The position numbers were made by a program, and so were the translations under genes. This document shows, piece after piece, positions 3,105 through 22,569 of a stretch of DNA of 23,820 nucleotides. Each line of letters starts with the position of its first letter. Positions within the stretch are counted from its first letter, which is position 1. The DNA is from a virus. A model generated the notes under the pieces. That model was not told where the DNA came from. It saw nothing but the letters and a program-made list of their open reading frames with translations, and made no database searches. Location: the IMG/VR virus record IMGVR_UViG_3300025280_000170, positions 1-23,820 of that record. The stretch is one strand, 5' to 3'.

Positions 3105-3136
3105 TATACTATTATACCCGGTTATTCGGCATACCT
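3105..3136 (-). promoter_or_regulatory. Promoter-like motif, family B, upstream of dut-nrdJ
   Basis: This 32-base segment matches the one upstream of RNAP1 (15205-15236) at 28 positions. The minus-strand core is ATAACCGGGTATA followed by ATAGTATA. Both copies lie in short untranslated gaps directly before a gene, as phage promoters do. The GGG after ATAACC could be the initiation site, as at T7 promoters. The TATAAT within it also resembles a host -10 box, but I see no convincing -35 box. This copy overlaps the last five codons of the exonuclease gene. Confidence 0.6.
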
Positions 3137-7398: not shown

Positions 7399-9136
7399 TG
7401 TTATCCCCTGCTTCTATTGGTTGAAATAAAGTTTGGCCGGTATCATCAATAGCATGATCAATCTCTTCCAAACGACCAGTCTTTCTATCGTAAAAGAGTG
7501 TACTAGCAATACCAGCACGGCCAGTAAGTCTATTCTTTAGTACCCGAACTATGGTAGTATTGGCTATGTTCTCATCAGGGTTCTGACGATCTCTTTCCAA
7601 ACCAACAACAACATTAGGTACAGAAGCTAGGCTTCCTGAGCCTCGTAAATCCTGCAAGGTAATACGATCACCCTCTTCATAAGCTTTATTAGTCTTACGT
7701 AACTGAGACACAACATCAATGCGTACTCCAGTACGAGAAACCAACGACCTCAGTTCCTTCATGATGTTATCAATCAAGAGTCGCTCTGAGTTACCACCAT
7801 CGAAATCAGTGGCAGCATTCATTAAACCAGTAGCAGCAGCCGTGATATGATCTAACACAATGACATCAACCTTAAGGGATACAGCCATGTATTCCATGCG
7901 AGCGCATAGATTCTTCAGTGCATTATTACCAAGATGATCATAGATGTAGAAGGATGTTTCATTAAGCTTACTTCTTGCTTCAGCATACTCCTCATCCGAA
8001 AGCTCATCAATAATATCCATATGAATTGGCGGCTTTCCCATCTTATCCCTAAGTTCGTTCATAAGCCTAACAGCCTTAATAGCACGAACAGGTTTATTAA
8101 TCATTAGAGAAATCATATCATCCATAGTTTCCTGTGGTGCTTCCTCTAACATAATAGCACCAACACTACGGTCTTCCTCAAGATGATGGTGCATAACTTC
8201 TCTTAAGATTGTAGACTTACCAGAGCCAGTACCTGAAGCCCACAGTGTAACCTCTCCTGATCTTTGACCAATGAGAAACTCTGTCAGCCTAGTGAATGGG
8301 AAGGGATATACCCTAGTCTTTGAGAAATCAGATTGATCTGCTATCTTAGAAACATGAATGATCTCATCGGGAGAATAGCTCTGTGCTTCCCAAAGAGCGG
8401 ATACTAACTCACTACCTTGTCCATTAACAAGACACTCATTAGCATCCTTGCCGGGAATACTAGCAATCTTACACTTACCCGGAGGCAGAAGTTCCGCAAC
8501 CTCATTCATAGCCTTTTGTCCAGCTTCATCCTGATCAAACGCCAAGACTATTTCTTGATAGGAAACTAACCACTCAAGATTATCTTTCACAGCCTTACCT
8601 GCTCCAGCCGCACCATTAGGTAATGACACAACAGGCCATCGTCCTCCTAGTGCTTGGTTACAAGTCATACAATCATACTCACCCTCAGTAATGATGACTC
8701 TCTTGCCACCGTTTCTCCAAAGATGTTGGCCCCACATGGTTGGCTTATAACTATTACCAATCCACCTAAAGGATTTATTAGCTCCACGTACATGCTGAGC
8801 TATCATGATCCCATCATTAAAGAAGGGAGCAATCTCTTTTCTTTGCCCGTTAACCTCGGCTACTTGGTAGCCATACTTTTTAGCAATCTCCGCTGTAATT
8901 CCACGGGACTTGAGGGCAATACAATCACCCTGAATAAAATTAGCGGACGTTCCTTCAATTACATTTGTCATCTTTGTGGTATTATCTCCCTTTACGTAGA
9001 AGCCACAACTAAAGCAATAACTGTGACCATCATCATAGACAGCTAAGTTATCACTGGAAGTATCTAGCCCCTTTACTGCACATTGGGGGCATCTGTCTCG
9101 GTTAACCACCGTTCCTTTGTCTTCATAATCTTTCAT
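7391..9136 (-). CDS. T7 gp4-like primase-helicase
   Basis: A bifunctional replication protein of 581 aa (T7 gp4 is 566). The N-terminal zinc-binding domain has CPQC (Cys16, Cys19) and CFSC (Cys41, Cys44). The TOPRIM primase core shows IITEGEYDC (Glu151) and AFDQDEAGQ (Asp201, Asp203). The C-terminal DnaB/RecA-like helicase has Walker A WASGTGSGKST (about 299-309), Walker B VDVIVLDHI, a SQLRK segment and a DLRGSGSLAS segment. It unwinds DNA at the fork and makes primers for the adjacent polymerase. GGAG lies 8 nt before the ATG. It overlaps both neighbours by a few nucleotides, as in a compact replication operon. Confidence 0.96.
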   Translation of the reverse strand: MKDYEDKGTVVNRDRCPQCAVKGLDTSSDNLAVYDDGHSYCFSCGFYVKGDNTTKMTNVIEGTSANFIQGDCIALKSRGITAEIAKKYGYQVAEVNGQRKEIAPFFNDGIMIAQHVRGANKSFRWIGNSYKPTMWGQHLWRNGGKRVIITEGEYDCMTCNQALGGRWPVVSLPNGAAGAGKAVKDNLEWLVSYQEIVLAFDQDEAGQKAMNEVAELLPPGKCKIASIPGKDANECLVNGQGSELVSALWEAQSYSPDEIIHVSKIADQSDFSKTRVYPFPFTRLTEFLIGQRSGEVTLWASGTGSGKSTILREVMHHHLEEDRSVGAIMLEEAPQETMDDMISLMINKPVRAIKAVRLMNELRDKMGKPPIHMDIIDELSDEEYAEARSKLNETSFYIYDHLGNNALKNLCARMEYMAVSLKVDVIVLDHITAAATGLMNAATDFDGGNSERLLIDNIMKELRSLVSRTGVRIDVVSQLRKTNKAYEEGDRITLQDLRGSGSLASVPNVVVGLERDRQNPDENIANTTIVRVLKNRLTGRAGIASTLFYDRKTGRLEEIDHAIDDTGQTLFQPIEAGDNNG

Positions 9137-9560
9137 CTCGTATCTCCGAATTAGTCTTCGATTTTTTCATAACCCTACCCACCCCAACAACATCATCAGT
9201 CTTCATAATAACAGCATCAATTTTATCGTGACCTAGTTCCTTTGCAATTAACACTCTATTGTTACCCTTCATTACTACCATAACCTCAGAAAGATTATCC
9301 CAATCCGGGGGATTCTCTTTTAAGATACCTTTAAGACCTCTGAAAAGACTATTAGAGATCATATGGTCAAGTCTTTCTTTAGAGAAAGGTACTATTAGTA
9401 TAGGATCTAGCATATAACCATCATTAGATATCTCTATTTTTAGTTTGTCATAGAAATCTTGTTGTTCAGGGGGTTCAACCATACATCTTAAGCCATCCAA
9501 CTCCACCTCAACTACTTCCATGTTTCCATACGACGTATACTGACTGCTTAGGGTTGTCAT
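9123..9560 (-). CDS. ParB/sulfiredoxin-like domain protein
   Basis: About 145 aa. The segments DGYMLDPILIVPF and VVMKGNNRVLIAKELGHDKIDAVIM match the ParB N-terminal fold, whose G-x-x-R-x-x-A-x-x-x-L-G core binds CTP or DNA in partition proteins and acts as a nuclease or regulator in phage versions. There is no C-terminal helix-turn-helix, so it is not a partition protein of the usual type. The start is ambiguous: ATG at 9560 follows the preceding stop by one base, while GTG at 9578 has AAGG at 7 nt and would add six residues. Role unknown. Confidence 0.65.
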   Translation of the reverse strand: MTTLSSQYTSYGNMEVVEVELDGLRCMVEPPEQQDFYDKLKIEISNDGYMLDPILIVPFSKERLDHMISNSLFRGLKGILKENPPDWDNLSEVMVVMKGNNRVLIAKELGHDKIDAVIMKTDDVVGVGRVMKKSKTNSEIRDERL

Positions 9561-9561
9561 A

Positions 9562-9786
9562 TTAGTTTCTAATTCCACTTATTACCTTAGCAATATTCTC
9601 AATATCCGCAATACTTTGATACGATAATACTTCCCCATCAGTATAGTCGAAATTTATATTTCCTTTAGGATCTAGAACAGCAACCTCAAACGTACCCTCA
9701 TTAGAATTTGTACCGGGTCCGCTGACAAGAGATAGTCCCCAACCATTCTTGAAATCCATACGATCACGAAACTTTTGTCTGTCCAT
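9562..9786 (-). CDS. Small hypothetical protein, 74 aa
   Basis: A 74-residue protein (MDRQKFRDRMDFKNGWGLSLVSG...) that reads like a small beta-rich domain. The motif NGWGLSLVSGPGT...FEVAVLD recurs in small T7-like phage proteins of unknown function, in my recollection. AGGAG lies 8 nt upstream of the ATG at 9786. It is the first gene downstream of the two-tRNA cluster and heads the replication block that continues to the exonuclease. Confidence 0.75.
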   Translation of the reverse strand: MDRQKFRDRMDFKNGWGLSLVSGPGTNSNEGTFEVAVLDPKGNINFDYTDGEVLSYQSIADIENIAKVISGIRN

Positions 9787-9801
9787 AGTATTTCTCCTAA
9801 A

Positions 9802-9874
9802 TGGGCCAGCCCGGATTCGAACCGGGGACCGAACGATTATGAGCCGTTTGCTCTGACCGCTGAGCTACTGGCCC
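9802..9874 (-). tRNA. tRNA with anticodon CAU, probably tRNA-Ile2 (AUA, lysidine type)
   Basis: A complete 73-nt cloverleaf: 7-bp acceptor GGGCCAG/CTGGCCC, anticodon stem AACGG/TCGTT with loop CTCATAA, T-arm CCCGG-TTCGAAT-CCGGG, discriminator A, no encoded CCA. A CAU anticodon could be Met or Ile2. The short D-loop (AGCGGTC) and C4-G69, C5-G68 pairs match E. coli tRNA-Ile2 and the known TilS determinants. Elongator Met has U-A and A-U pairs at those positions. If correct, host TilS would convert C34 to lysidine and the tRNA would read AUA. Confidence 0.92.
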
Positions 9875-9965
9875 GTAGAGGTCTCTTTACCCGGCCACGG
9901 CTTTCCTCATTGCCGACAGGAGGGTTAGGTAGCCTGCGCCATCCGGTGAAGGCCGGGGTATATAG
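9875..9965 (-). other. Structured 91-nt spacer between two tRNA genes
   Basis: No gene fits. On the minus strand CCCGGCC (about 9949-9955) can pair with GGCCGGG (about 9888-9894), enclosing a segment that contains a smaller GGC/GCC stem. The paired unit is about 68 nt, close to tRNA size, but no T-loop consensus or anticodon arm is visible. It could be a decayed tRNA or a processing spacer in a tRNA precursor. Confidence 0.4.
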
Positions 9966-10038
9966 TACCCTCGGTGGGATTCGAACCCACACTGTATGGA
10001 TTTTAAGTCCATTGCCTCTGCCGTTGGGCTACGAGGGC
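9966..10038 (-). tRNA. tRNA-Leu(UAA) with a short variable loop
   Basis: A 73-nt cloverleaf with acceptor GCCCTCG/CGAGGGT (first pair G-U), anticodon stem ATGGA/TCCAT, loop CTTAAAA (anticodon UAA), T-arm GTGGG-TTCGAAT-CCCAC and discriminator A, as leucyl-tRNA synthetase requires. CCA is not encoded. Bacterial leucine tRNAs normally carry a long variable arm; this one has only five bases (ACAGT). It would read UUA, and UUG by wobble. Confidence 0.9.
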
Positions 10039-10051
10039 AATGAGAAGACGA

Positions 10052-10088
10052 GGGTTGGCTTGCCATTATCACAGGACGAAGCCAACCC
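10052..10088 (-). terminator. 10-bp hairpin after the RusA gene
   Basis: GGGTTGGCTT (10052-10061) and AAGCCAACCC (10079-10088) are perfect complements around a 17-nt loop, 8 nt downstream of the RusA stop and 14 nt before the tRNA-Leu 5' end. There is no clean U-tract (TCGTCTTCTC follows). It may therefore be a weak terminator or a processing site that separates mRNA from tRNA. Confidence 0.5.
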
Positions 10089-10095
10089 CCATCCC

Positions 10096-10473
10096 CTACA
10101 ACTTATCAACTCCAATAAGGAAGTAGCCGGGTTCACCAGCTTCGGCCCATTGTTTAGTAATGTATAACTTATGAATTTGAGAATCATCAACCCAAAGTTT
10201 CTTATTCAGAACATCCAAGACAGCCTTAGCAAAATTATCTACGTCTGCCTTTGGATATTCTAGTTTAGTTTTCTTAGGTCGAGTAATAAACAACTCCAAG
10301 TCTACAATAATTGGACCTTCGATAAGCTCGAAATCCGTACCTAGAACTTCATACACTTCTTCTGCACACTCCGCCCTGAATTTCTTATATGGTCCAGTAA
10401 AGTATGCACCATACCTAGAAACACGGGGTCTACTGGCTGCTATGGGATTAATATTAAATCTCCACTCTGGCAC
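10096..10473 (-). CDS. RusA-family Holliday junction resolvase
   Basis: A 125-aa endodeoxyribonuclease that cleaves branched DNA and takes the place of T7 gp3 endonuclease I in this gene order. The family's catalytic Asp residues are in YPKADVDNFAKAVLDVLN (Asp77, Asp79) and LWVDDSQI (Asp96/Asp97). The N-terminal SRPRVSRYG...FTGPYKKFR segment is also typical. Length matches RusA (about 120 aa). The start is GTG at 10473, with AGGAG 7 nt upstream. It follows the ssDNA-binding protein gene by 13 nt. It probably resolves replication and recombination intermediates before packaging. Confidence 0.93.
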   Translation of the reverse strand: MPEWRFNINPIAASRPRVSRYGAYFTGPYKKFRAECAEEVYEVLGTDFELIEGPIIVDLELFITRPKKTKLEYPKADVDNFAKAVLDVLNKKLWVDDSQIHKLYITKQWAEAGEPGYFLIGVDKL

Positions 10474-10486
10474 AGCTAGACTCCTA

Positions 10487-11005
10487 TCAGAACGGGAGAT
10501 CCTCAGTATCTCCAGCGTCAGTGTTTACAATAGTTTCGGCCTTATGCTCAGAACCATCGAAACCATCTGTAGCTTCAAAGCCACCAGTAAAGTCTCGTTC
10601 TGCCTTCTCAATAATCTGAACACCATTAAGGAACATGCTCAGAGAATTATCACGCTCAATGACGACAGGAGTAAGCCTAAGCTTAACCCTATCACCACCA
10701 TAAGGAGTAGCCGTCGTAGGCTTTGCTGACGCATCAACGCACGGAAATGCATGGACTTCCTTTCTAACAAAGATCTTAGTCTTTGACTTGAGTGTACTAA
10801 TCCCATCATCCTCAGTTTTAAGACTATTAATTTTAGTGCATCCCAATTCCTTGGCGACATCATCCATGTACTGCATGGTTTCGTCATCAAGAATTACAGT
10901 GATGTTGTGATTAGCCGAGTCAAGACCAAACTTGCTATCCGGCTTGTGTAGGTGTGACCAACGAACCTCAAGATCCTCAGTCACAAAAGAATTACCGCGC
11001 TTCAT
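10487..11005 (-). CDS. T7 gp2.5-like single-stranded DNA-binding protein
   Basis: 172 aa with an OB-fold-like body and the family hallmark, an acidic tail ending in an aromatic residue (DAGDTEDLPF). In T7 gp2.5 the terminal Phe and acidic tail contact the polymerase and primase-helicase. The PTTATPYGGDRVKLRLTPVV segment resembles the conserved core of DUF2815/gp2.5 proteins. The ATG at 11005 has AAGGAG 9 nt upstream and lies inside the 3' end of the preceding gene. It sits before RusA, the same order as T7 gp2.5-gp3. Confidence 0.92.
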   Translation of the reverse strand: MKRGNSFVTEDLEVRWSHLHKPDSKFGLDSANHNITVILDDETMQYMDDVAKELGCTKINSLKTEDDGISTLKSKTKIFVRKEVHAFPCVDASAKPTTATPYGGDRVKLRLTPVVIERDNSLSMFLNGVQIIEKAERDFTGGFEATDGFDGSEHKAETIVNTDAGDTEDLPF

Positions 11006-12474: not shown

Positions 12475-12859
12475 GATTTTGCCCCCTTCTTAAAGTTGAC
12501 ATCTCAATAATAATCTCCCGGGGAATACTATGAACCGTTCCTGTCGTATCCTCCCCAACTGTATCCGTGAATGCTACATACTCCTCATTCTCAAATAAAA
12601 TATAACCTACATTTTTAATCTGAGGTAAAGGTTCTGTGGCATATGAATACGCTTCCTCTACTGTGACCCACTCAGGACCACCCTGAGAATGAGCGTCAAC
12701 CCAAATGATTTCCCTTATCTCAAGCAAAGAGGTAATCAGATCTGAGAACTCTTTCAATTTCGAATTGTCCTCTTTCGGGCAGCTCTGGCAATGACAATCC
12801 GAGTTGTTCTTCAACATCCTCCTTGAGTCTCTGTAGCTGGTCTTCCTTATGCATTTCAT
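12449..12859 (-). CDS. Hypothetical protein overlapping the RNAP1 3' end; start uncertain
   Basis: The C-terminal part (REIIWVDAHSQGGPEW to REIIIEM) is a coherent small domain of a kind I recall from T7-like phages, where it usually forms a protein of 60-80 aa. The frame stays open 140 nt into RNAP1, and the ATG at 12859 has an AAGGGAAG site. If used, it adds about 45 residues including HCQSC, which look less protein-like. A non-ATG start near 12727 (TTG) is the alternative. The stop overlaps the next gene by 26 nt. Function unknown. Confidence 0.6.
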   Translation of the reverse strand: MKCIRKTSYRDSRRMLKNNSDCHCQSCPKEDNSKLKEFSDLITSLLEIREIIWVDAHSQGGPEWVTVEEAYSYATEPLPQIKNVGYILFENEEYVAFTDTVGEDTTGTVHSIPREIIIEMSTLRRGQNHDDEVDRQ

Positions 12860-15179
12860 AAAATTCTTCCCTTATGAATGGTACTAATAAATCCATATCT
12901 GGAGCAGGACAACCATAGGAATCATGAACCATAGAGAACTGGTACATTCCATTCATTATAGCACGATACACTGTACAGAATAAATGACTGGCATCTAAAC
13001 TATGTATCCAGTTAGGTGATATAGCCTGCATAACTGCCTTGCGATCCACATCCGTCTGACTATGGGTAGCAAAGATTAATTCTTTTTTATTAAATAACTC
13101 AGCAAAGCTACGACGCTTCGTTGGTTTGAAGTAAGCATGGACCACACGGAATCCTGATGGTGTGGTATAAACAATGTGTTCATTAAGATTACTTGCTATC
13201 TCCCCAATCTTCCTAAGATATTCCTTACCCTTGTTAGGCATGACTAAAGATTCTTCTAACCCAGCTTTTATAGCTCGGGCTAGTTCAGTAATAGCTGCAT
13301 TCTGAGAATCCTTAGGCATCCAATCCAAGTGTCCCTCAGTTTTAAGATACCGCTGTATACCATAGAATGTAAGACCATATGGTTCACACATAGTACTACG
13401 CTTTGTAACTTTTCTTGGTATCTTATGTTTCCAATGAACGAGAAAATCATCATACAATGATACCTCTTCTTTAGTTTTATCGCAGAATACTGTAACCTTA
13501 TCGGCAATAAACTGATAGAGATCTTGAGGTAAATCATTAACATCTACGTTAGTCAGCTTGGCAATGACCTCATCTCTCATTATAGAGGACCAATGCTGAG
13601 AGCCATTGCACGCCCCATCAACCTGAACAGGAACCTGTGTTAAACCATCCTCCCTGAACAAATCAAATATTGCGGCAAGCCTTTGGAACGATGGGTTCTT
13701 TTTTGTTTTATCTGAAACCCACTCTTTATTTTCATAGGGATCATTATTGATAGCCCGTAACATCTCAATGTTATCATCAACCCATTTAACTCTGTCGGCA
13801 AACGAACCCTTATCCTCATCAAACAGGTTCGCTATATGTATCTTAAGCCACCTCACCCCACCTGTGGTTTGTTGTCTTGGTTCAGCAAACATAATTAAAC
13901 CGACATCTAAATCAGAACCCTGACAAGACAATAGCTCACAGGTAGAATACGCCCTACCCCTAAAATCTAGTGTGTAAGGCATGTACCAAAATTCATACTT
14001 TGATAATTCCTTGGCGAGATTTAGTCTAACAAGCAAACGACAACGGTGTTGCTCGGACTTAAACCAGTCACCCCAATGTTCTTCTCTTGCCACGCACCAC
14101 TTGGCCTGTTCTTCTTTAGATCCATCTTCAGGATAAGGTTCATTAAACATAAACACATCTAAAGAGAAAGCCGGAAGGTTTGCAAGACAAGTATTATTTT
14201 TAAAGAGATTCTCCATTACCCCCAAGACCTTTGGATTCACAGTCCACTCGGTCTGCATCATGGCATTTAAACCATCTAACACAAGCTGACTAGGTTGAGA
14301 GAAACTCTGAGGCTTTAAATAACCTTCTTCGTAATCTGAAAGATACCTCTGGACAACTTCCTTACGGGACCAGTGATTAAGATAACCACCACTGGCTTGT
14401 AAGGTGTGATCGACAGGAGGTACTATCATAGGTCGATACAATAAATTCTTAGACTCAAGTATTGCATGTTTATCATGGAGATCCCTAAGTATATCAGGTC
14501 GTAGGGTAATAAACAAACGCTTTCTCCACATCTTACCCCCACCATATCGTTGGGATAGCATTAGAAAAATACCAGAGGTTTCTGCAATACGAAGCATATG
14601 ATGTCCAAAGTCTTGTCTTCGTTTTAAGGATACGTTTTGTAGACAACCTACCTTAATAGAGAAGGCCCGGCATCTTTTAGTTGTCCAGTTCTTTATAAAC
14701 TTGGATTGCCTTTGCCAATCGTTTTTAAAATCTTCTTTAGATTGTTGATAAGCTATGATAGCAAAGGCTTCTTGGGAAATAATATTCGATAGTTTTTGTG
14801 CAGTAGGTAATGGATAGGCAGGGTTCATCAACCCTGAGAATTCCTTATCCCTGAACATGGCTGATCGTAACCATTCCCTAATGAAACATCTTAGGGTTAG
14901 GTCAGCCATCTTAGGCGCACCTAAAGCCAACAGTGGTATTAACCAAGTAGGTGTCTTATGGTTACTACATAATTTATCTATCCATTCTTGATAGAAAGGG
15001 GTGAGGTGGACTACCGTAGCATCAAGTAACTGTTGCTCCGGTAGCCCTTCATCTGGTGAACGCTCATAGTCTTTCCAGTAGCGAGCGATTCCACCCATTA
15101 TCATCTCCTCTTCCATGAGATTTTGAGTAGATATCCTCTCGCCTCTGTCTTGTTCTGAGAGTTTGTCCCATAATTGCAT
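12720..15179 (-). CDS. T7-like single-subunit DNA-dependent RNA polymerase (RNAP1)
   Basis: 819 aa (T7 is 883). It transcribes phage genes without host subunits. Visible core: YRPMIVPPVDHT (about 248-259), the DFRGRAYS strand (405-412) followed by CQGSDLD, motif A QVDGACNGSQHWS with catalytic Asp521, motif B TKRSTMCEPYG with Lys593 and Tyr601 (T7 Lys631, Tyr639), SPNWIHSLDASH, and motif C MVHDSYG with His752 and Asp753 (T7 His811, Asp812). The C-terminus DYLFA resembles the T7 FAFA end. AAGGAG precedes the ATG. A family B promoter-like motif lies 26 nt upstream, so the gene may be driven by a phage polymerase. Confidence 0.97.
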   Translation of the reverse strand: MQLWDKLSEQDRGERISTQNLMEEEMIMGGIARYWKDYERSPDEGLPEQQLLDATVVHLTPFYQEWIDKLCSNHKTPTWLIPLLALGAPKMADLTLRCFIREWLRSAMFRDKEFSGLMNPAYPLPTAQKLSNIISQEAFAIIAYQQSKEDFKNDWQRQSKFIKNWTTKRCRAFSIKVGCLQNVSLKRRQDFGHHMLRIAETSGIFLMLSQRYGGGKMWRKRLFITLRPDILRDLHDKHAILESKNLLYRPMIVPPVDHTLQASGGYLNHWSRKEVVQRYLSDYEEGYLKPQSFSQPSQLVLDGLNAMMQTEWTVNPKVLGVMENLFKNNTCLANLPAFSLDVFMFNEPYPEDGSKEEQAKWCVAREEHWGDWFKSEQHRCRLLVRLNLAKELSKYEFWYMPYTLDFRGRAYSTCELLSCQGSDLDVGLIMFAEPRQQTTGGVRWLKIHIANLFDEDKGSFADRVKWVDDNIEMLRAINNDPYENKEWVSDKTKKNPSFQRLAAIFDLFREDGLTQVPVQVDGACNGSQHWSSIMRDEVIAKLTNVDVNDLPQDLYQFIADKVTVFCDKTKEEVSLYDDFLVHWKHKIPRKVTKRSTMCEPYGLTFYGIQRYLKTEGHLDWMPKDSQNAAITELARAIKAGLEESLVMPNKGKEYLRKIGEIASNLNEHIVYTTPSGFRVVHAYFKPTKRRSFAELFNKKELIFATHSQTDVDRKAVMQAISPNWIHSLDASHLFCTVYRAIMNGMYQFSMVHDSYGCPAPDMDLLVPFIREEFYEMHKEDQLQRLKEDVEEQLGLSLPELPERGQFEIERVLRSDYLFA

Positions 15180-15204
15180 AAGGATCTCCTTTGTCAGTAA
15201 GTAG

Positions 15205-15236
15205 TATACTACTATACCCGGTTATAGGGAATACCT
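15205..15236 (-). promoter_or_regulatory. Promoter-like motif, family B, upstream of RNAP1
   Basis: It matches 28 of 32 bases with 3105-3136; the shared minus-strand core is ATAACCGGGTATA. It lies in a 99-nt untranslated gap directly before RNAP1. It overlaps a perfect palindrome GTAGTATACTAC (15201-15212) on its downstream side. The GGG after ATAACC is a possible initiation site. Confidence 0.6.
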
Positions 15237-15251
15237 AATACAATCATTAGG
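15234..15251 (-). terminator. Short hairpin between DUF932 gene and RNAP1
   Basis: CCTAAT and ATTAGG form a perfect 6-bp stem with a 6-nt loop, upstream of the family B motif and 28 nt past the DUF932 stop. It has no U-tract, so it may be a weak terminator or part of the promoter region. The rest of the 15180-15278 gap holds nothing else I can name. Confidence 0.3.
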
Positions 15252-15278
15252 ACCAGCCAAATGCCTCACCCCGTAATA

Positions 15279-16292
15279 TCAAATAGCAGCAAGAGCCTTG
15301 CGCATAACCTTCATCGAGTTACTAGCACCCTTGCCAAACAGGTTCCTATCAATTCTAGCAGCGGTAGCCATCTGACGACCACGCTTGGCCTTCCTGTGCT
15401 GGAGCCAGTTGGTCACAGCATTAGCAGCCATCCAAGGCGTAGGATTGGACCCAAGATCAGAACGCTCACTATCAAATGTCTGACTCCAAGAATTCAAGGT
15501 AGTCATAGCGTGCTTATAGGTATTATCCTCGGCCTCAGTCTGAGGATTGGGATTAACATCCTTCTCCTCAATCATCTGGTAGCAGTCAAGCCAGAACTTA
15601 GTGATACTGTCCTTGTCCCAATTAACGGAGGTCAACTGTTGTACATTCTCTCTAAAGAATTTACCAGTCTCACGAAAGTAAGACAATGCTTGCCTCGCTT
15701 GAGCCATCTTGTCTGCCATATCACCATTATGAGTAAACCTAAACATATTACGGCTACTCTGAGACAAAGCCATGTTCAAAGTGTTCTCACACACAATCCG
15801 AATACTAGTAGGCAACCCACTAAGAGCCAGTGTACCATCATGTCCATTACAGAGGCAAAGATACTGATCAACAGTATCATTGAATCCATCAGCCATGAAA
15901 GAATCGGCCCTAAGAAGGGTATAAATTCTAGCACCGTTCCTAAGGGAACCAAAAGATTCCACATGAGTATCATCACCAGCAAGACTATAAGCGAGTTCTG
16001 CCAGTTCTGCATTTTGTACTACCTTATACTCTTTACCAACCCAACCAAGCACATCGCCCGTATCAGATCGGACATTAGCCACTCGGTCACTGGTAGATCC
16101 CGATACATTTTCACCTTCATCATTACGATAAAAGTATTCAATATAGGTAGAAGGCTTAACTGTCCAGTCCAAACCTGCTTCAACCAAAGCTTCTCTAGGG
16201 GAGAGAATGGTATTAGTCACAGTACCAAGACCGTGCCATGCTTTCTTACCATAATATACAGCCGAATCATTTTCTGTCATTTCATGCGACAT
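15279..16292 (-). CDS. DUF932 phage/plasmid-like protein
   Basis: 337 aa. The N-terminal KKAWHGLGTVTNT, the DVLGWVGKEYKVVQNAEL core and the later RIVCENTLNMAL segment are signatures of DUF932 (TIGR03299, LGT-type phage/plasmid protein). The family is widespread on phages and plasmids and often lies near recombination or replication genes; its biochemical role is unknown. AGGA lies 6-7 nt before the ATG at 16292. The C-terminus is basic (RKAKRGRQMATAARIDR), consistent with nucleic-acid contact, an inference. It is the last gene of the middle operon before RNAP1. Confidence 0.9.
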   Translation of the reverse strand: MSHEMTENDSAVYYGKKAWHGLGTVTNTILSPREALVEAGLDWTVKPSTYIEYFYRNDEGENVSGSTSDRVANVRSDTGDVLGWVGKEYKVVQNAELAELAYSLAGDDTHVESFGSLRNGARIYTLLRADSFMADGFNDTVDQYLCLCNGHDGTLALSGLPTSIRIVCENTLNMALSQSSRNMFRFTHNGDMADKMAQARQALSYFRETGKFFRENVQQLTSVNWDKDSITKFWLDCYQMIEEKDVNPNPQTEAEDNTYKHAMTTLNSWSQTFDSERSDLGSNPTPWMAANAVTNWLQHRKAKRGRQMATAARIDRNLFGKGASNSMKVMRKALAAI

Positions 16293-16300
16293 ATTTTTTC

Positions 16301-16639
16301 CTATTCGTGTTCGATTTCATACTTTACAAACCACTTCTTAGCACCAAGATACTTGATACCACTAAGACTAGCGTGAATCGTTACATCATAGCCTCTATTA
16401 TCATCAATAAAGGCTTGAGTATAACGATTGAAATACAAAGGCAACCAATCCTCATTCTCAAGTAGATTCTTACCGCTAAGATCCACCTCAAACTCAACCT
16501 CTGGGTTCTCTAAAACGGGTTGCCAATTTACATCCCTTTCCTTACTACCCCAAAACTCATAGTGTCCGATACCCTGATCTTCTTCGGTCCACTCAAGTAA
16601 TCCTAGTACTGCCTCTTGAATGTCAAAGATTTCAGGCAT
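16301..16639 (-). CDS. Hypothetical protein, 112 aa
   Basis: A protein rich in Trp, Phe and Tyr (MPEIFDIQEAVLGLLEWTEED...), with a patch YEFWGSKERDVNWQP and a basic C-terminal strand. I recognise no family. ATG 16639 is chosen because GGAG lies 8 nt upstream; the longer frame to 16654 starts with TTG. It precedes DUF932 by 8 nt. Confidence 0.75.
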   Translation of the reverse strand: MPEIFDIQEAVLGLLEWTEEDQGIGHYEFWGSKERDVNWQPVLENPEVEFEVDLSGKNLLENEDWLPLYFNRYTQAFIDDNRGYDVTIHASLSGIKYLGAKKWFVKYEIEHE

Positions 16640-16814
16640 CTTGTCTCTCCTCAAAGGTACTCATCCATTCCGAAAGGAACCGAGTAGCATCCTTACTACC
16701 AATATCAAACTGTTCTTGGATGTAGTTTCCAGCACCAAACATATTAACTACGCCTAGTTCTCTAACGTGATCCAAAAACTGATTTACTTCATCCTGTGTG
16801 GGTAATTCATCCAT
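16632..16814 (-). CDS. Small hypothetical protein, 60 aa
   Basis: A short helical acidic protein (MDELPTQDEVNQFLDHVREL...). The ATG at 16814 has AGGA 8 nt upstream. It overlaps both neighbours by 8 nt, the spacing of translationally coupled genes. The helix-turn-helix-like spacing of GVVNMFGAGNYIQEQFDIGSKD is suggestive but not convincing. Function unknown. Confidence 0.7.
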   Translation of the reverse strand: MDELPTQDEVNQFLDHVRELGVVNMFGAGNYIQEQFDIGSKDATRFLSEWMSTFEERQDA

Positions 16815-17025
16815 TACTCATATCCTTTGGTAATTTTCTTGGTTCATATATACCTTGAAAGAACCTATCCAAATGTCTAACGGCCAACACAGCCTCACCC
16901 TTGTCAGAAAATATAGCCAACTCACGGGTGTAAGACGAATACTCAGGTTCAGATTCTACCATTGATTCATGGTAAAACCAAGAATCATTCTCGGTATTAT
17001 ATAAACCCCAACGTGGTTTAGTCAT
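16807..17025 (-). CDS. Small hypothetical protein, 72 aa
   Basis: Begins MTKPRWGLYNTENDSWFYHES and contains ELAIFSDKGEAVLAVRHLDRF, which reads like a compact beta-alpha domain. The frame can be extended to 17151, but the ATG at 17025 overlaps the previous stop by 8 nt (ATGACTAA) and has GGAAG upstream; the extension would duplicate the coding space of the previous gene. No family assigned. Confidence 0.75.
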   Translation of the reverse strand: MTKPRWGLYNTENDSWFYHESMVESEPEYSSYTRELAIFSDKGEAVLAVRHLDRFFQGIYEPRKLPKDMSNG

Positions 17026-17308
17026 CCAACTCTTCCATCTTCTTATTAAATTCTTCAATCGAAATGTTCCCAACGGCAAAGTCATAACGTAAGCCATACT
17101 CAGCAGCAGAGATATTCCTTGGTCTTTGGTCATCACCCTTACCAGACCCATGATCGGGTTTGTTCATGTTAAAGGGTGTCCAATTCTTACGCTTTGCTGC
17201 ATCAGCACTCTTGTCACCCGCAGCATAATCACGTTTTGCGGCTAGGTTTTTATTTAGTTGACGCTGTTGCGCCCTAGAGAATTTATATTCGCCTTCTTCT
17301 TCAGTCAT
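17018..17308 (-). CDS. Hypothetical basic protein, 96 aa
   Basis: A Lys/Arg-rich helical N-terminus (FSRAQQRQLNKNLAAKRDYAAGDKS) is followed by WTPFNMNKPDHG and an acidic amphipathic C-terminal helix. The ATG at 17308 has GGGAGG upstream and overlaps the previous gene by 8 nt. No family recognised; nucleic-acid binding is possible from composition. Confidence 0.72.
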   Translation of the reverse strand: MTEEEGEYKFSRAQQRQLNKNLAAKRDYAAGDKSADAAKRKNWTPFNMNKPDHGSGKGDDQRPRNISAAEYGLRYDFAVGNISIEEFNKKMEELDD

Positions 17309-17462
17309 TTAAATCCTCCCAACCCTTTGCCCATTGTTCTGCGGTTTTAGGGTCAAGTCCAGTGAGTTCACCGATTCTTTCCCAATCAGGTTCCTCACCT
17401 TTATACCAAGCAGCGGACGCAAGTTCCCAGCATTCATACGCAGTTTCTTTTACTCGTCCCAT
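17301..17462 (-). CDS. Small acidic Trp-rich protein, 53 aa
   Basis: It fills the gap between two genes and is too short for standard ORF cut-offs. MGRVKETAYECWELASAAWY... to WAKGWEDLND. Start ATG 17462 has AGGTGAG about 8 nt upstream and overlaps the previous stop by 13 nt; the stop overlaps the next start as ATGACTGA. Five Trp residues in 53 suggest a folded mini-domain. The segment EPDWERIGELTGLDPKTAEQW looks like a helix-turn-helix (IGELTGLDPKTAEQW), so a small DNA-binding protein is possible. Confidence 0.75.
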   Translation of the reverse strand: MGRVKETAYECWELASAAWYKGEEPDWERIGELTGLDPKTAEQWAKGWEDLND

Positions 17463-17698
17463 TTACTGATCTCACCTTCTAAATTCTTGATGGCATCGTC
17501 ACATACCTGAATAGCAGCCGATAGGGCTAGGTCCATCCTATCCATAACACCATTCATTTTACCATGATTTTGATCTAGTTGGTGCAACAAATCTTCAATT
17601 TTGTCTAAAGTTTTTTCGTCCATGTAATATTCCTCACATTGTATCTGACAATCGAAGTCGTCAAGGGGTACATCTATTCTACACCTATGAATTTTCAT
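17450..17698 (-). CDS. Small coiled-coil hypothetical protein, 82 aa
   Basis: Residues about 25-80 form a long amphipathic helix (MDEKTLDKIEDLLHQLDQ...). Three Cys lie near the N-terminus (CRIDV, CQIQCEE) and one in the helix. The ATG at 17698 has AGGA about 6 nt upstream. It is the first gene downstream of tRNA-Arg. Function unknown. Confidence 0.75.
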   Translation of the reverse strand: MKIHRCRIDVPLDDFDCQIQCEEYYMDEKTLDKIEDLLHQLDQNHGKMNGVMDRMDLALSAAIQVCDDAIKNLEGEISKWDE

Positions 17699-17712
17699 AA
17701 CATTCCTTTCAA

Positions 17713-17785
17713 CACGCCCGGCAGGATTCGAACCTGCGACCTACGGCTTAGAAGGCCGTTGCTCTATCCACTGAGCCACGGGCGC
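17713..17785 (-). tRNA. tRNA-Arg(UCU)
   Basis: A 73-nt cloverleaf with acceptor GCGCCCG/CGGGCGT, anticodon stem ACGGC/GCCGT, loop CTTCTAA (anticodon UCU), T-arm GCAGG-TTCGAAT-CCTGC and discriminator G; CCA is not encoded. It reads AGA and AGG, which are rare in many bacteria. It lies one base downstream of a small membrane-peptide gene. Confidence 0.96.
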
Positions 17786-17786
17786 A

Positions 17787-17903
17787 TCACCTGAAGATCA
17801 AGTAGATAACAGTACCAAGTAGCATTATATCAGCAAAGATAGACCAAGCGATATAGGTTTTGAAAGAAAACGAAAGTATCAACTTGGAATAATTCTTCTT
17901 CAT
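17787..17903 (-). CDS. Single-span membrane peptide, 38 aa
   Basis: MKKNYSKLILSFSFKTYI continues into a hydrophobic span (AWSIFADIMLLGTVIYLIF) ending in Arg. GGAGG lies 8 nt upstream of the ATG at 17903, the strongest ribosome-binding site in this part. The stop falls one base before the 5' end of tRNA-Arg. A basic N-terminus followed by one span suggests an inner-membrane peptide with N-in topology. Function unknown; nothing identifies it as a holin. Confidence 0.72.
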   Translation of the reverse strand: MKKNYSKLILSFSFKTYIAWSIFADIMLLGTVIYLIFR

Positions 17904-17924
17904 GGTCGGTTCCTCCTATATACC

Positions 17925-18726
17925 TAAGGGATACCAGAGTCAAGGTCGGTGGGTAAACTATTCCCACAAGCCATAGCCAAAGAGTCCACCACTAGTAAGT
18001 TGGTTTTTATTGGCCTCTAAAGCCTGACTGCTGCTCCGCATTGATCCATCCGCAGAGGGACTCTCTCGTTGCTTTACAACACCTTTGTCTCCTAGTGTAC
18101 CAAGACATATTCAGTCACAACTACGCATCGGTGGTTGCTATCCACATGTAGACGGATGCGTAACTCTGATATCCCTTGGATATATAGAAAAGGAACAGTA
18201 GAGGGAATCGAACCCTCCATTACCGGCTACCATGTTGCAACATGGACACCTTGCAAGTGTAATTTTCCTTGCCGGTAATCACAACCAGTGATCTGTATAG
18301 TAAATAAGCAGTTTATTTCAGACTCCTCATGCTCAGGAGAGTTTGATTCCAGCAATGATCATCCTCAAGATAGATTAGTCTTTGTCTCGCCTTGCAAGGC
18401 TCGTTAGCCAGCAATGTCCGACAAGCAGGGTATCTGTCGCTGGACATCAACAATGGCAATACCATTGTCATATAGTTTCCTCCCTACTAGGTGTAGTCCA
18501 GAGTTTGTCGGACCTACATCGCTAATAGGGAACGCTTTGGGCTTACATTCTATTTATACTCGCCCAAACGAGTGGTCTTATGACTCTTGGCGATTCAGCC
18601 TCACCTATGCCAACCAGCCCCATACCGCGCCCGTCATAGGATAGGTCAAGGATTCAATAAGAGAATAGTACATACAATCCTTGAGAAGTAACTAATCTCT
18701 GCGTTCGTAAGGGGGACAACGAACGC
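17925..18726 (-). ncRNA. Large structured non-coding RNA candidate (about 800 nt)
   Basis: No supported gene lies here on either strand, yet perfect helices are dense. Examples in plus coordinates: 18701-18707 with 18720-18726 (7 bp), 18646-18654 with 18676-18684 (9 bp), 18481-18486 with 18526-18531, 18450-18456 with 18462-18468 (7 bp), 18414-18419 with 18442-18447 enclosing 18419-18423 with 18435-18439, 18219-18227 with 18271-18279 (9 bp), a tRNA T-arm mimic at 18201-18217, and 18122-18129 with 18155-18162 (8 bp). Direction is inferred from neighbours and from the T-loop, which reads correctly only on the minus strand. Length, phage context and the tRNA neighbour recall the GOLLD and ROOL RNAs; I cannot confirm either. 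Ends are approximate. Confidence 0.65.
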
Positions 18727-18983
18727 TAAGCCGTTGCTTTTTGCTTACGCTTGAAGAACTTCAGGAGGGGGTTCCTCCCTTTGGTAGAACTAGGGCTATC
18801 ACATATGCACCCACGTTCATGTAATGCGTCGTAAGCACCGTTCAATTCGGCTTCATAAGCCCACTCTCCAGTACGCTTATAGCAAACCAAAAACCTCCCG
18901 TGTATCGGGTGTAATACCGACACTTGGTTATATCTAAACTCGACCGTGAACCCGGCCAGCGTGAATCTATCTAGTACATTCAT
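18726..18983 (-). CDS. Small hypothetical protein, 85 aa
   Basis: A beta-rich N-terminus (FTLAGFTVEFRYNQVSVLHPIHGRF) is followed by WAYEAELNGAYDALHE and a basic tail (LLKFFKRKQKATA). The ATG at 18983 shares one base with the preceding stop (TAATG), with TAGGA upstream. Its codons for SPSSTKG contain the third copy of the family A promoter-like repeat, so the DNA serves two purposes. No family recognised. Confidence 0.75.
   Translation of the reverse strand: MNVLDRFTLAGFTVEFRYNQVSVLHPIHGRFLVCYKRTGEWAYEAELNGAYDALHERGCICDSPSSTKGRNPLLKFFKRKQKATA
18777..18805 (-). promoter_or_regulatory. Promoter-like motif, family A, copy 3 (upstream of the ncRNA)
   Basis: The plus-strand bases CCCTTTGGTAGAACTAG then GGCTATCACATA match the tandem copies at 22475-22569 apart from a one-base insertion and a few changes. 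On the minus strand it reads GTGATAG, then CTAGTTCTACCAAAGGG. It is inside the 85-aa gene, about 50 nt before the ncRNA region. If GGG is +1, transcription would start at 18779. Confidence 0.55.
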
Positions 18984-19099
18984 TAGTTTTTCCTACCTGC
19001 TCTACGCAGGCCATACTTGTTTTTCTTGGATCTTCTAGGCTTGCCTTTCTTTTGCAGCCTAGATACATGCGTCCTCAATGCTTCGGTTACTCTAGACAT
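18983..19099 (-). CDS. Small basic protein, 38 aa
   Basis: MSRVTEALRTHVSRLQKKGKPRRSKK... has roughly 15 Lys/Arg in 38 residues, probably DNA- or RNA-binding. The ATG at 19099 overlaps the preceding stop by 8 nt (ATGTCTAG) and the stop shares one base with the next ATG (TAATG). Both junctions support it as a real gene, although it is too short for most gene finders. Function unknown. Confidence 0.75.
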   Translation of the reverse strand: MSRVTEALRTHVSRLQKKGKPRRSKKNKYGLRRAGRKN

Positions 19100-19406
19100 T
19101 AGGTTTATCTTTCTTAACTAACGCCTTCCTAACAGCATCAGTCAAAACATTGGCGTGTAATCGCATATACTTACGGTCCTTAGCGTTAGTATTCCTGCGA
19201 TCAAAGAAGGTTCGATCTATCAATCGGGTATAGATCCTCTTGTTTTTCCACATAATACTCACACTATAGTCTCTCTTACGATCAAAGAGAAATACCTCCC
19301 ACTCATAGGCATTTAAGGGGAGTCGCTTATATACCTTAAGCGTCAGACCCTCGTGGATAAGTATAAGAGTATCCTTGAGGAACTCACGATACGAAGCGTT
19401 CTTCAT
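19092..19406 (-). CDS. Hypothetical basic protein, 104 aa
   Basis: MKNASYREFLKDTLILIHEG then a beta-rich segment (TLKVYKRLPLNAYEWEVFLFDRKRDYSVSI) and a very basic C-terminal half. ATG 19406 is preferred because GAGG lies 6 nt upstream, formed by the RNAP2 stop region; a GTG at 19418 is the longer option. It begins right after RNAP2. Function unknown. Confidence 0.75.
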   Translation of the reverse strand: MKNASYREFLKDTLILIHEGLTLKVYKRLPLNAYEWEVFLFDRKRDYSVSIMWKNKRIYTRLIDRTFFDRRNTNAKDRKYMRLHANVLTDAVRKALVKKDKPNV

Positions 19407-19414
19407 AACACACC

Positions 19415-21541
19415 TCACATGAACATGAACTCAGATTCCAGAACGTCATCAATACACAAGTCACCGAACTCAGGCAACTCAACATCATACGTTTCAGCGA
19501 GAGCTACCAGTGGTGACTCCCTATACAGAGCCACGAACATAGCAGGAATTACACCGCGTACAGCGGGTACATCCTTAGGCAACATAGCAAGACAGTCATG
19601 TATACCAGCAATACTGATAACACCATGACCTGTAATCGCCTTCCAGATACACAGTTGTAAGTGACATCCATCCATTGAGTGAGTGAAGTTAGGAGGTCCA
19701 GCGGTGCAAGACTTCCGTACATTCAACTCATCGTCAAACTTGAAGAACTTCAAGGACGAACAAGAATCGTCATCGAAGCGTTTACTAGCCGTAAGCGTAC
19801 ACTCTACACGATTGTTCTTAAAGTTCTCAACCCTAAGACCAGCCGCAGTAGTCCACACCATAGGCTCACCATCTTCCGCAGCAGCCTTAACACATGCCTT
19901 GATAAAGTCCATGTAGTTAAGGATACTCGGGACCACAGTTAACAACGACTTGCGATACCGACTGGCAAGTTTCATAGCAACATCGAATTGTAACTCTACA
20001 TCAATGTCTAACTTACCGATGGGACTGTCAGGTGCAGCAACCACCATCCACTCCGGTTCATCTTCAGTACCTGCGTTATGCCAAGTCTTATCACCCATGA
20101 AATTCTTACCGATACGTAGTACTGTACCACCGTAAGGAATAATCATTACCGGGTCTTTGGCAACACTGGCGTTGTTAACTACATCATCCTCAGCGATAAA
20201 CATATCAACGTAATCGTGATCGTCCTCACCCGCAGACCAAGCACGACGGTTCTCCTCACAAATATCCTCTCGGAAGTTATGAGGCAACCCTGTGTCATTA
20301 GGCACAAGGTTAACACGCCATGCTCCATCGGCATCGAGTAGGGCAGCATTCGAGTGCTGGTTGTTAGACGAAGTTGCATCAAGCCTAACGGGTAGGTTCC
20401 AAGTGCCATCCTCAAGGGCTTCACTCAACGAATTACACGCTGCGAAGCACCGGAAAGTACCAGCACCCTTACCAAACCCATCCCACCAAGCATCCAGATG
20501 TTTCAAAGGATCTTTCGAGATAGCAACGAGTTGCTTCTCATTATCCTCAGTCCACTGAACACGATCTTCAAATCGCATCTTGTCCAGTTTCTTACCTTCT
20601 GCTATTGGCAGGCCAGAACACGCATTGGCAACCTGAACCCTTGCCCAGAACCAGTCACGCATCGTGGACAGTTGCTGCTTCTCATGAAACCTCAACACGC
20701 CTTGGCATAGGTCATTACCTTGCGGTGACAATACATCGCTAAGGTAGTACAACCTGCCTCGGTTATCCAGATACACAACCAGCCAGAATGGGATGCCAAG
20801 CATCTCAGACGCTACCTGTAGGCAAACGCTGTGCGAATACTTGTTGACCTCAGACTCATAAGGCAGCAAGGTATACTTGGCTACCTCAAGGGTCCACTCA
20901 TCAACTACCCAAGCCGTATTTTGTAGTGCGTTCATAGCAGCCACAATTTTCTGGCCCACAACATTCTGCCATGTACCATGACTAATGCCGTGGCGAAGGG
21001 CATCTGTAAGGTATCCACCCGGCTCCTCTATTGTATGAGGAACAGGAGGGACAATCATAGGCCGACGATTCATGCCGACCAGACCCCACAGATCATACTC
21101 GTCCAGCATACCAGTCAAGTACGAAGTAAGGCGAACGACTGTAGCATCCTCACGCTTGTTAGTCCACAGGCTAATCAGTCCAGCCTGTCGGCAAGCATGT
21201 AAGACGTTCCAAGCCAACGCCAAACGATCATCTCTGCTCATGTCAGAACATAGCCAAAGCAACCGCTGTGATATTTCATTCACAACAGGGTGTGCTTGAG
21301 CCGTGTTACCTGACTTGGAAACCTTGTCCATTGTCGCACATAAGGCTATGTGTGATACGTTTCGGGTTCCGAGATGTCGCACAATCCTGACCCACTTGGG
21401 CAAGCGTTGAAAGGATGACATCACAACCTCAAGGGCTTCCTCTAGATGGTCAACGATAGGGTTAGGATTATTACCTGACCCCACGATTTCCATTTCAAGG
21501 TCACGCTGACGGTCCAATGTAGCATCCAATACTCTAGTCAT
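19415..21541 (-). CDS. Second, divergent single-subunit RNA polymerase (RNAP2)
   Basis: 708 aa from ATG 21541, chosen because AGGAG lies 7 nt upstream. All landmarks of the T7 family are present but diverged (numbering from this ATG): RRPMIVPPVPHT (about 159-170), YLDNRGRLYYLS (257-268) followed by SPQGNDL, motif A VRLDATSSNNQHS with Asp388, motif B VAKDPVMIIPYGG with Lys462 and Tyr470, PPNFTHSMDGCH, and motif C GIHDCLAMLP with His648 and Asp649. The C-terminus EFMFM corresponds to T7 FAFA. Catalytic residues are intact, so it should be active. It is shorter at the N-terminus than RNAP1, where promoter contacts lie. Tandem family A motifs lie about 1 kb upstream. G+C looks higher than in RNAP1. 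Confidence 0.93.
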   Translation of the reverse strand: MTRVLDATLDRQRDLEMEIVGSGNNPNPIVDHLEEALEVVMSSFQRLPKWVRIVRHLGTRNVSHIALCATMDKVSKSGNTAQAHPVVNEISQRLLWLCSDMSRDDRLALAWNVLHACRQAGLISLWTNKREDATVVRLTSYLTGMLDEYDLWGLVGMNRRPMIVPPVPHTIEEPGGYLTDALRHGISHGTWQNVVGQKIVAAMNALQNTAWVVDEWTLEVAKYTLLPYESEVNKYSHSVCLQVASEMLGIPFWLVVYLDNRGRLYYLSDVLSPQGNDLCQGVLRFHEKQQLSTMRDWFWARVQVANACSGLPIAEGKKLDKMRFEDRVQWTEDNEKQLVAISKDPLKHLDAWWDGFGKGAGTFRCFAACNSLSEALEDGTWNLPVRLDATSSNNQHSNAALLDADGAWRVNLVPNDTGLPHNFREDICEENRRAWSAGEDDHDYVDMFIAEDDVVNNASVAKDPVMIIPYGGTVLRIGKNFMGDKTWHNAGTEDEPEWMVVAAPDSPIGKLDIDVELQFDVAMKLASRYRKSLLTVVPSILNYMDFIKACVKAAAEDGEPMVWTTAAGLRVENFKNNRVECTLTASKRFDDDSCSSLKFFKFDDELNVRKSCTAGPPNFTHSMDGCHLQLCIWKAITGHGVISIAGIHDCLAMLPKDVPAVRGVIPAMFVALYRESPLVALAETYDVELPEFGDLCIDDVLESEFMFM

Positions 21542-21615: not shown

Positions 21616-22410
21616 TCAGCCGAGGTCTGCTGTCATTACCGCAGACTTGTTAGTGTTACGACGCTTCGGACGATTGGACTTAGTGATTCCAGTCCGCTCA
21701 TCTACTTGCTCAAACCAGTTGCCGGGCTTGCCAATCTTGAATCCCTGTTCGGCCAGCCCTTCGTTCAGGCTATAGACGGCTTCCTTGTAGTCGTTACCAA
21801 TTCCACATGCTCCCGTAAGATCATGCTTCTTGGCCTTCTTCTTGTAGGTGCCGTCTTTCTTCTGAACCCCTGTACCAAGGATCTCTAGCATGATGCCGTC
21901 ATCGGTAAGCGTTTGACGAACCATCATACCTTTCAGGTACTCAGTCTTGGCCTGTATTGGGGAGACAGGCTCCACCTCAGGCTGCTGATTCCCAAGGATC
22001 TGCTGAACCAGTGTCTTGCTCCGCAACTTGCTTGAAGCACCAACACCAGCCAACCCCTTGAGTTGCTCACGAGGCATAGCCGTCAACGTCGCCTCCGTAA
22101 ACACGGGAGGTGCATCAACCGACTTCACCTTGCGAGTCTTCTTCGCCGCCTTTGGCTTGCCTGTCGGAACACCGCCAGCCTTTGCAGCAGCCAGTTCAGC
22201 CTCAAGTTGAGCAATACGCTCAGCGTTGCTGTCTTGGGCAGGCTGCTCATCGGTCAACGGATTTCCCTCATGGTCAAGGCCCAACTCCTCCAGCCGCTTG
22301 ATAGCGAACCGGCTACCGTTATTGTGACGGCGTACCAGTTCAGCCACAGCCTTAGGATTACCCTTGGCTACGAGTTCTTGTCCAGACAGTTGAATCATCT
22401 TCTTAGCCAT
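21616..22410 (-). CDS. Hypothetical basic/coiled-coil protein with possible SAP-like segment
   Basis: About 264 aa. It has an N-terminal basic helical region, a coiled coil (AERIAQLEAELAAAKA), a Lys/Ala/Pro-rich linker, a helix-loop-helix (LTAMPREQLKGLAGVGASSKLRSKTLVQQIL) that resembles SAP or HeH nucleic-acid-binding modules, and a C-terminal globular region ending in basic SNRPKRRNTNKS. ATG 22410 is preferred over the upstream 22434 because of AAGGA upstream. It sits between the tandem promoter-like repeats and RNAP2, so the two genes are probably co-transcribed and may act together. The SAP assignment is tentative. Confidence 0.72.
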   Translation of the reverse strand: MAKKMIQLSGQELVAKGNPKAVAELVRRHNNGSRFAIKRLEELGLDHEGNPLTDEQPAQDSNAERIAQLEAELAAAKAGGVPTGKPKAAKKTRKVKSVDAPPVFTEATLTAMPREQLKGLAGVGASSKLRSKTLVQQILGNQQPEVEPVSPIQAKTEYLKGMMVRQTLTDDGIMLEILGTGVQKKDGTYKKKAKKHDLTGACGIGNDYKEAVYSLNEGLAEQGFKIGKPGNWFEQVDERTGITKSNRPKRRNTNKSAVMTADLG

Positions 22411-22474
22411 TTTACGTATGTTCCTTATCGTCATGGCGTTTACATGGGTGGGTACACACAGCCCTGTGCCGTGG

Positions 22475-22511
22475 CCCCTTTGGTAGAACTAGACTATCAC
22501 GTACGTACATA
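22475..22511 (-). promoter_or_regulatory. Promoter-like repeat, family A, copy 1
   Basis: A 37-bp perfect direct repeat of 22533-22569, 58 bp apart, in an untranslated gap. The minus-strand core is CTAGTTCTACCAAAGGGG, preceded by TACGTACGTGATAGT. The CTACCAAA-GGGG arrangement resembles the CACTATA-GGG initiation end of T7 promoters. It is the nearer of the two copies to the 264-aa gene and RNAP2. Confidence 0.65.
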
Positions 22512-22532: not shown

Positions 22533-22569
22533 CCCCTTTGGTAGAACTAGACTATCACGTACGTACATA
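22533..22569 (-). promoter_or_regulatory. Promoter-like repeat, family A, copy 2
   Basis: Identical to 22475-22511 over 37 bases. The whole 22435-22601 gap is also rich in TACGTA and GTAC alternation (TACGTACGT, CATACATACGTG), which gives many short palindromes. Tandem identical copies suggest strong or staged transcription of the downstream 264-aa gene and RNAP2, or binding sites for a regulator. Confidence 0.65.

Follow-up and report, generated by a model that had tools for sequence, protein, structure and literature searches.

The window, a 23,820-base stretch of an IMG/VR virus record, encodes two single-subunit RNA polymerases (ssRNAPs), RNAP1 and RNAP2, and carries two families of promoter-like motifs that covary with them. 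We put at roughly two in three the probability that both enzymes are catalytically competent and use separate promoters, RNAP1 reading motif B and RNAP2 reading motif A, with RNAP2 acting early and RNAP1 then taking over. T7 biology rests on a single phage polymerase and a single family of promoters. The finding is real and partly precedented, and it is more informative at the level of the clade than from a single genome.

Two polymerase genes in one phage genome

The main genes of the window lie on the minus strand and are read from right to left (Table 1). The first-pass annotation had claimed two complete ssRNAPs; both were confirmed by their open reading frames and by profile matches, with the strand corrected to minus. 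The Pfam profile RNA_pol (PF00940, cut-off 22 bits) matched RNAP1 with E = 3.5e-78 (263.8 bits) and RNAP2 with E = 2.1e-36 (126.2 bits), PHROG 414 (phrog_414) matched them at 1.2e-145 and 6e-96, respectively, and the T7 and mitochondrial RNAPs were the nearest PDB entries by sequence for both. The N-terminal part of RNAP2 is about 100 residues shorter than that of T7 RNAP; an alternative start at 21556 would give 713 aa. The divergence between the two proteins, already considered too great for a recent duplication in the first-pass annotation, is indeed large enough to reject a recent duplication of RNAP1.

Other metagenomes yielded three contigs, G001 (34.5 kb), G002 (40.5 kb) and G003 (15.4 kb), that are 99.7–100% identical to the window in nucleotide sequence over the shared length. 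Both polymerase genes are whole in G001 and G002, and G003 holds RNAP1 and the end of RNAP2. Because the same layout recurs at this identity in independent contigs, the two polymerases are not an assembly join, and the concern that two genomes had been fused into a chimera was rejected.

In the window and the matching contigs, the gene order runs from early genes through the 272-aa gene, RNAP2, a tRNA with small genes and a DUF932 gene to RNAP1, and continues with primase-helicase, DNA polymerase, nucleotide metabolism genes including ribonucleotide reductase (RNR), and the T7-type portal, scaffold, capsid and tail genes. A giant ORF adjoins the early region in G001. This order agrees with the earlier placement of RNAP2 in the early region, upstream of RNAP1.

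Three further observations concern this stretch. The DUF932 gene lies directly upstream of RNAP1; relatives have a gene of 330–343 aa near its position, and a blastp comparison gave no match between that gene and the DUF932 gene. The RNR gene gave weak matches to an RNR barrel domain and a B12-dependent (class II) insertion domain. The first bases of the window match neighbouring sequence, inverted, in two other contigs.

Table 1. Positions of genes, motifs and other elements in the window, and in contigs of relatives where a contig is named
Feature	Position	Strand	Description
Start of window	1-88		probable contig-end hairpin artefact
RNR gene	720-2621		ribonucleotide reductase
Motif B copy, ATAACCGGGTATAATAGTATA	3105..3125	minus	end of exonuclease gene, before RNR/late gene unit
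RNAP1	15179..12720	minus	ssRNAP, 819 aa, probable main (middle/late) polymerase
Motif B copy, ATAACCGGGTATAGTAGTATA	15205..15225	minus	candidate RNAP1 promoter, 46 bp upstream of RNAP1 ATG
DUF932 gene	15279-16292		phrog_1221
ORF-poor stretch	17790-18720		almost ORF-free; T-arm-like GGTTCGATTCCC
tmRNA 3' end match	18201-18217		sub-threshold
Pistol ribozyme	18512-18573	minus	self-cleaving, between RNAP2 and RNAP1
Motif A copy 3, GTGATAGCCCTAGTTCTACCAAAGGG	18777..18802	minus	downstream of RNAP2
RNAP2	21541..19415	minus	reduced ssRNAP, 708 aa from ATG with AGGAG just upstream
272-aa basic protein	21616..22434	minus	directly upstream of RNAP2, no Pfam match
Motif A copy 2	22475..22500	minus	tandem partner of copy 1, 58 bp further downstream
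Motif A copy 1, GTGATAGTCTAGTTCTACCAAAGGGG	22533..22558	minus	candidate RNAP2 promoter
Pistol ribozyme, G027	L254 1212-1273	minus	
manA matches	L256 3061-3269, L118 4955-5165, L126 18467-18677, L254 717-909 (-)		weak, downstream of short RNAP gene
Giant ORFs	L117:4312-19731 (G011); L274 + L273 at 8001-10700		5.1-5.3 thousand residues

Catalytic residues and predicted fold of RNAP2

Both enzymes keep D537, K631, Y639, H811, D812 and the DxRGR arginines, R425 included (T7 numbering throughout), and both end in a hydrophobic or aromatic C-terminus. The earlier description of intact motifs holds for the metal ligands, the catalytic motif B Lys/Tyr, the motif C His-Asp and the C-terminus, but it fails for four positions of RNAP2, where R627 is replaced by A, R632 by D, Y571 by R and G542 by N. 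In T7 RNAP, the triphosphate of the NTP is bound by R627 and K631 and the ribose by R632 (PMC9836923; PMC11617373). RNAP2 may be slow or altered because the equivalents of R627 and R632, both present in RNAP1, are missing. The loss of R627 is common to RNAP2 and its closest relative G027, which has T at this position, and the residue is kept in G006 and G022; R632 is variable too in accepted ssRNAPs such as SP6 and phiKMV. Judged from its sequence, RNAP2 is intact in its metal ligands and catalytic motif B Lys/Tyr, but not across the whole NTP pocket. Membership of an inactive lineage had been named as a possible objection; RNAP2 fell outside any recognised inactive lineage, although some NTP-binding residues are lost.

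Structure prediction, proposed earlier as a means of comparing the promoter-recognition loops, gave an AlphaFold2 model of RNAP2 (pLDDT 86.7, pTM 0.86) with a T7-like predicted fold. The best Foldseek match was the T7 elongation complex 8dh0 (E 5.8e-29), the TM-score to the T7 RNAP–promoter complex 1cez was 0.77, and beta-hairpins were predicted at the positions of the T7 intercalating hairpin and specificity loop.

RNAP2-type proteins with 12–60% identity to the window RNAP2 all keep D537, K631, Y639, H811, D812 and R425. Many have less than 20% overall identity, yet every lineage examined retains the catalytic Asp residues, the catalytic motif B Lys/Tyr and the motif C His, which argues for selection on RNAP2 catalysis. 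A dead paralogue is disfavoured because the catalytic residues are kept family-wide.

Motif A, a candidate promoter of RNAP2

Two promoter-like motif families had been noticed at first inspection, and motif A and motif B each recur on the coding strand, where all their clear copies lie. Copies are few, three of each motif, which counts against the separate-promoter reading. Two copies of motif A (core TTCTACCAAAGGG) stand in tandem ahead of the 272-aa gene and RNAP2, and the third follows RNAP2; no copy lies directly before RNAP1. For copy 3, G006 likewise has a copy, located within the orthologous gene. A tandem pair, spaced 54–64 bp apart and positioned at -909 to -1038 from RNAP2, was present in 4/4 genomes of the RNAP2 clade (window phage, G027, G006 and G022), and in each of the four it is preceded by an alternating pyrimidine-purine tract. 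The same search gave no tandem pair in 13 other regions (0/13), among them G029, G030 and G041, with little upstream sequence, and two RNAP1-only genomes. Exact 16-mers repeated within 100 bp numbered 22 in the window vs 0 in each of 20 shuffles. A simple scan for repeated motifs in Foturvirus and Tawavirus found none that were promoter-like.

A gene of similar size to the 272-aa gene lies directly upstream of RNAP2 in G027 (38% identity), G006 (28%) and G022 (no detectable identity). The gene is thus a position-conserved partner of RNAP2, and its product may bind DNA. N4 RNAPII (gp15/gp16) is a minimal enzyme of 673 aa with a reduced N-terminal domain, and needs the small cofactors gp1/gp2 (PMC4496689); by analogy with gp2, the 272-aa protein might be a cofactor of RNAP2, which is a guess.

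RNAP2 diverges much faster than RNAP1. Identities to the window RNAP2 and RNAP1 are 60% and 78% in G027, 41% and 69% in G006, and ~31–32% and 51% in G022, and some relatives' short RNAPs are hardly recognisable as RNAPs. Together with the loss of the R627, R632, Y571 and G542 equivalents, this would fit a polymerase-derived DNA-binding regulator, or an interferer with host transcription, that is catalytically dead or almost so, with motif A as its operator and not a promoter. We consider such a role for RNAP2 unlikely, given the retention of the catalytic residues in lineages so diverged, and given that the core of motif A ends in a purine run resembling a T7-type start site and that all its copies point along the genes.

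Motif B and covariation with the specificity loops

Motif B (ATAACCGGGTATARTAGTATA) has three copies in the known sequence of the phage, immediately past the giant gene, before RNAP1 and before the RNR/late unit, and it occupies the same three places in G006. The copy before RNAP1 is identical in G027, and its core is conserved in G006. The pre-RNR site is occupied by a different sequence in G013, G014, G019, G021 and G022. RNAP1-only relatives, including G014 and G019, carry another motif, GTTGGAGCTATAGATAT, after the giant gene and before the RNR unit, and additional copies of this class occur on the sense strand of G018 and G021. Because G014 and G019 keep such sites and have no RNAP2, the class of sites represented by motif B appears to belong to RNAP1. 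LUZ100 likewise has a phage promoter, phi1, directly before its own ssRNAP gene (PMC10134795), the position that motif B holds in the window; T7 and LUZ100 have one RNAP, whereas the window phage has two, with different promoter-like motifs.

The motifs were compared with the specificity loops in four genomes. Relative to the window, the RNAP1 loop was 98% identical in G027, 81% in G006 and 46% in G022, while motif B was identical at 21/21 positions in the first, at 19/21 in the second, and replaced by a GTTGGAGCTATAGATAT-type motif in the third, as it also is in the sisters of G022. The RNAP2 loop was 53%, 47% and 31% identical in the same order, and motif A matched at ~15/21, ~13/21 and ~7/21 positions, values that are approximate because the register between genomes was chosen by eye. 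Each motif thus appears to track the promoter-reading loop of its own enzyme, and this is the best evidence for the enzyme–promoter pairing that we infer.

The covariation also bears on a simple RNAP2 to RNAP1 cascade, the version nearest to the first-pass proposal, in which RNAP2 would read motif B, and motif A would be a host promoter, an origin iteron or a regulator site. The location of motif B directly before RNAP1 is what such a cascade would predict. We nevertheless regard it as improbable: a promoter-like motif persists at the other motif B sites in relatives that lack RNAP2, motif B is identical in the window and G027 though their RNAP2 loops are only 53% identical, compared with 98% for the RNAP1 loops, and the search for the tandem motif A detected it in no genome lacking this RNAP2 lineage.

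Spread of the second polymerase

RNAP1 retrieved a large uncultured clade of the T7 supergroup, with 220 confirmed IMG/VR stretches in one scan. In aligned clade members RNAP1 is 49–78% identical to that of the window, with all catalytic residues present. A second short RNAP occupies one shared syntenic position upstream of RNAP1 in G027, G006, G022, G009, G011, G029, G030, G033, G034, G036 and G060, and borderline similarity to a short RNAP was seen at the syntenic place in G047/G048/G056. It is absent from G014, G019, G055, G058, G065 and G066, whose sequences cover the giant gene and the complete early region. A survey of the clade, which had been suggested as a check, therefore found the second ssRNAP to be common but, being missing from these six members, not universal. 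The distribution is patchy, with RNAP2 present in G022 and missing in its near-sisters G014 and G019 (RNAP1 ~87% identical), as might be seen for a transient accessory or selfish gene of little importance whose promoters serve only itself; this is hardly credible, because many deeply diverged members share a short RNAP-like gene at this syntenic position, which argues for long retention.

Precedents and origin

The idea that dual ssRNAPs are unheard of is not supported. The genome of Alteromonas phage vB_AspP-H4/4, reported in 2017, lists two DNA-dependent RNA polymerases (PMC5658483), and two RNAP loci were found by a tblastn survey also in R8W, JSF7, phiV141 and ~20 Vibrio K-phages, in addition to the clade of the window phage itself. 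Literature searches on two or second RNAPs in Autographiviridae-type phages turned up none beyond the H4/4 announcement and N4-like phages.

Like the window phage, Foturvirus (H4/4, R8W), Tawavirus (JSF7, phiV141) and Vibrio K365–K466 have a short early RNAP (673–708 aa) and one of ~800 aa. However, the early RNAPs of these phages keep R627, which the window RNAP2 does not, and their large RNAP adjoins structural genes, whereas the window RNAP1 precedes primase-helicase and DNA polymerase. In the tree, the early RNAPs of Foturvirus/Tawavirus-type phages form one clade (100/100) and the late RNAPs another. A place for RNAP2 within the early clade was not supported by the tree, in which RNAP2 lies outside it; a single clade with these early RNAPs was not rejected (AU p = 0.096), and neither was a deep duplication of RNAP1 as the source of RNAP2 (AU p = 0.10). 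Phages with dual ssRNAPs were thus known, and what seems new here is an early enzyme that forms a separate, fast-changing lineage, with promoters that seemingly change along with it.

With T7 and the Autographiviridae the window phage shares the RNAP fold, the catalytic motifs and T7-type portal, head and tail proteins; its main genes lie on one strand, as in that family, and its matches to phrog_449, 267, 446 and 457 cover the head-tail adaptor, the capsid and the tail tube, all of T7 type. The usual member of the Autographiviridae has one RNAP and a genome of ~40 kb, whereas here there are two RNAPs, the contigs of relatives reach 54–68 kb and encode proteins of 3.5–5.3 kaa, and the nearest cultured terminase, portal and DNA polymerase are only ~31–40% identical. 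N4 (Schitoviridae) resembles the window phage in having more than one ssRNAP-type enzyme. However, N4 RNAPII is a heterodimer, whereas in RNAP2 a single unbroken chain carries every motif. The late genes of N4 are transcribed by host RNAP, whereas in the window phage the late unit is preceded by a phage motif.

Giant protein and RNA elements

In a comparison with the N4 virion RNAP, no RNAP match was found in the last 2060 aa of the window phage's giant protein, the only part in the sequence, nor in the full 3804-aa giant protein of G006. The giant proteins of the more distant relatives G009/G011 have ssRNAP-like catalytic motifs A and B, and in such relatives the giant protein is a possible third, N4-virion-like polymerase. 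A 900-aa RNAP-like piece gave a predicted structure with pLDDT 42 from three sequences. In the giant ORFs listed in Table 1, the ssRNAP-like catalytic motifs A (YFDGNFNGIHHKMAL) and B (RxLFKKPVMxxLYGA) are accompanied by an IHDS motif upstream and GRxY downstream, which might tentatively be read as a rearranged motif order (C-A-B, followed by GRxY), and phrog_414 matched with E = 1.2e-4.

Several RNA elements were also observed. The Pistol ribozyme of the window scored above the Rfam gathering score and follows motif A copy 3 at a distance of ~200 bases; it is also present in G027. In four relatives, manA RNA matches scored 26.8–44.1 bits (gathering score 55.2). The ORF-poor stretch with the T-arm-like sequence is possibly a divergent phage tmRNA.

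Proposed transcription circuit

The separate-promoter reading would operate as follows. Either host RNAP or a different starter probably makes the first RNAP2. Sigma-70 promoters of the host were considered as its source, and a sigma-70-like scan of the early region gave no excess of host promoters (11 vs 16 expected). RNAP2 would then amplify its own operon, from the 272-aa protein to RNAP2, using the tandem motif A, with one more motif A downstream, and its read-through along the same strand would help to switch on RNAP1. The coding strand showed no strong terminator between the two polymerase genes, so read-through from motif A could reach RNAP1. Because synteny and covariation assign motif B to RNAP1, this read-through, starting several kb upstream, would be the only way for RNAP2 to reach RNAP1. 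The cascade from RNAP2 to RNAP1 put forward in the first-pass annotation is accordingly supported in part; it is possible, more probably by read-through than by RNAP2 acting at the motif B before RNAP1, which would be RNAP1's own. RNAP1 would amplify itself from that motif together with the downstream replication genes and then take over, reading motif B also before the RNR/structural unit and where the early region starts.

A fuller version is more tentative, and we give it somewhat less than even odds: a self-amplifying early stage, consisting of RNAP2 with its tandem promoters, relays to the main RNAP; the two enzyme–promoter pairs are orthogonal, with the early pair diversifying faster; and a third ssRNAP-like domain resides in some giant, probably virion, proteins.

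Implications

Two purified proteins and two short templates would suffice to test directly who transcribes whom. If the proposed circuit is true, the transcription programme of this phage would be run almost wholly by phage polymerases, and natural orthogonal enzyme–promoter pairs would stand side by side in one genome. Such pairs would show how the promoter specificity of ssRNAPs evolves and would be candidates for orthogonal expression tools, and the fast divergence of RNAP2 with its catalytic residues kept reveals where the ssRNAP fold tolerates change.
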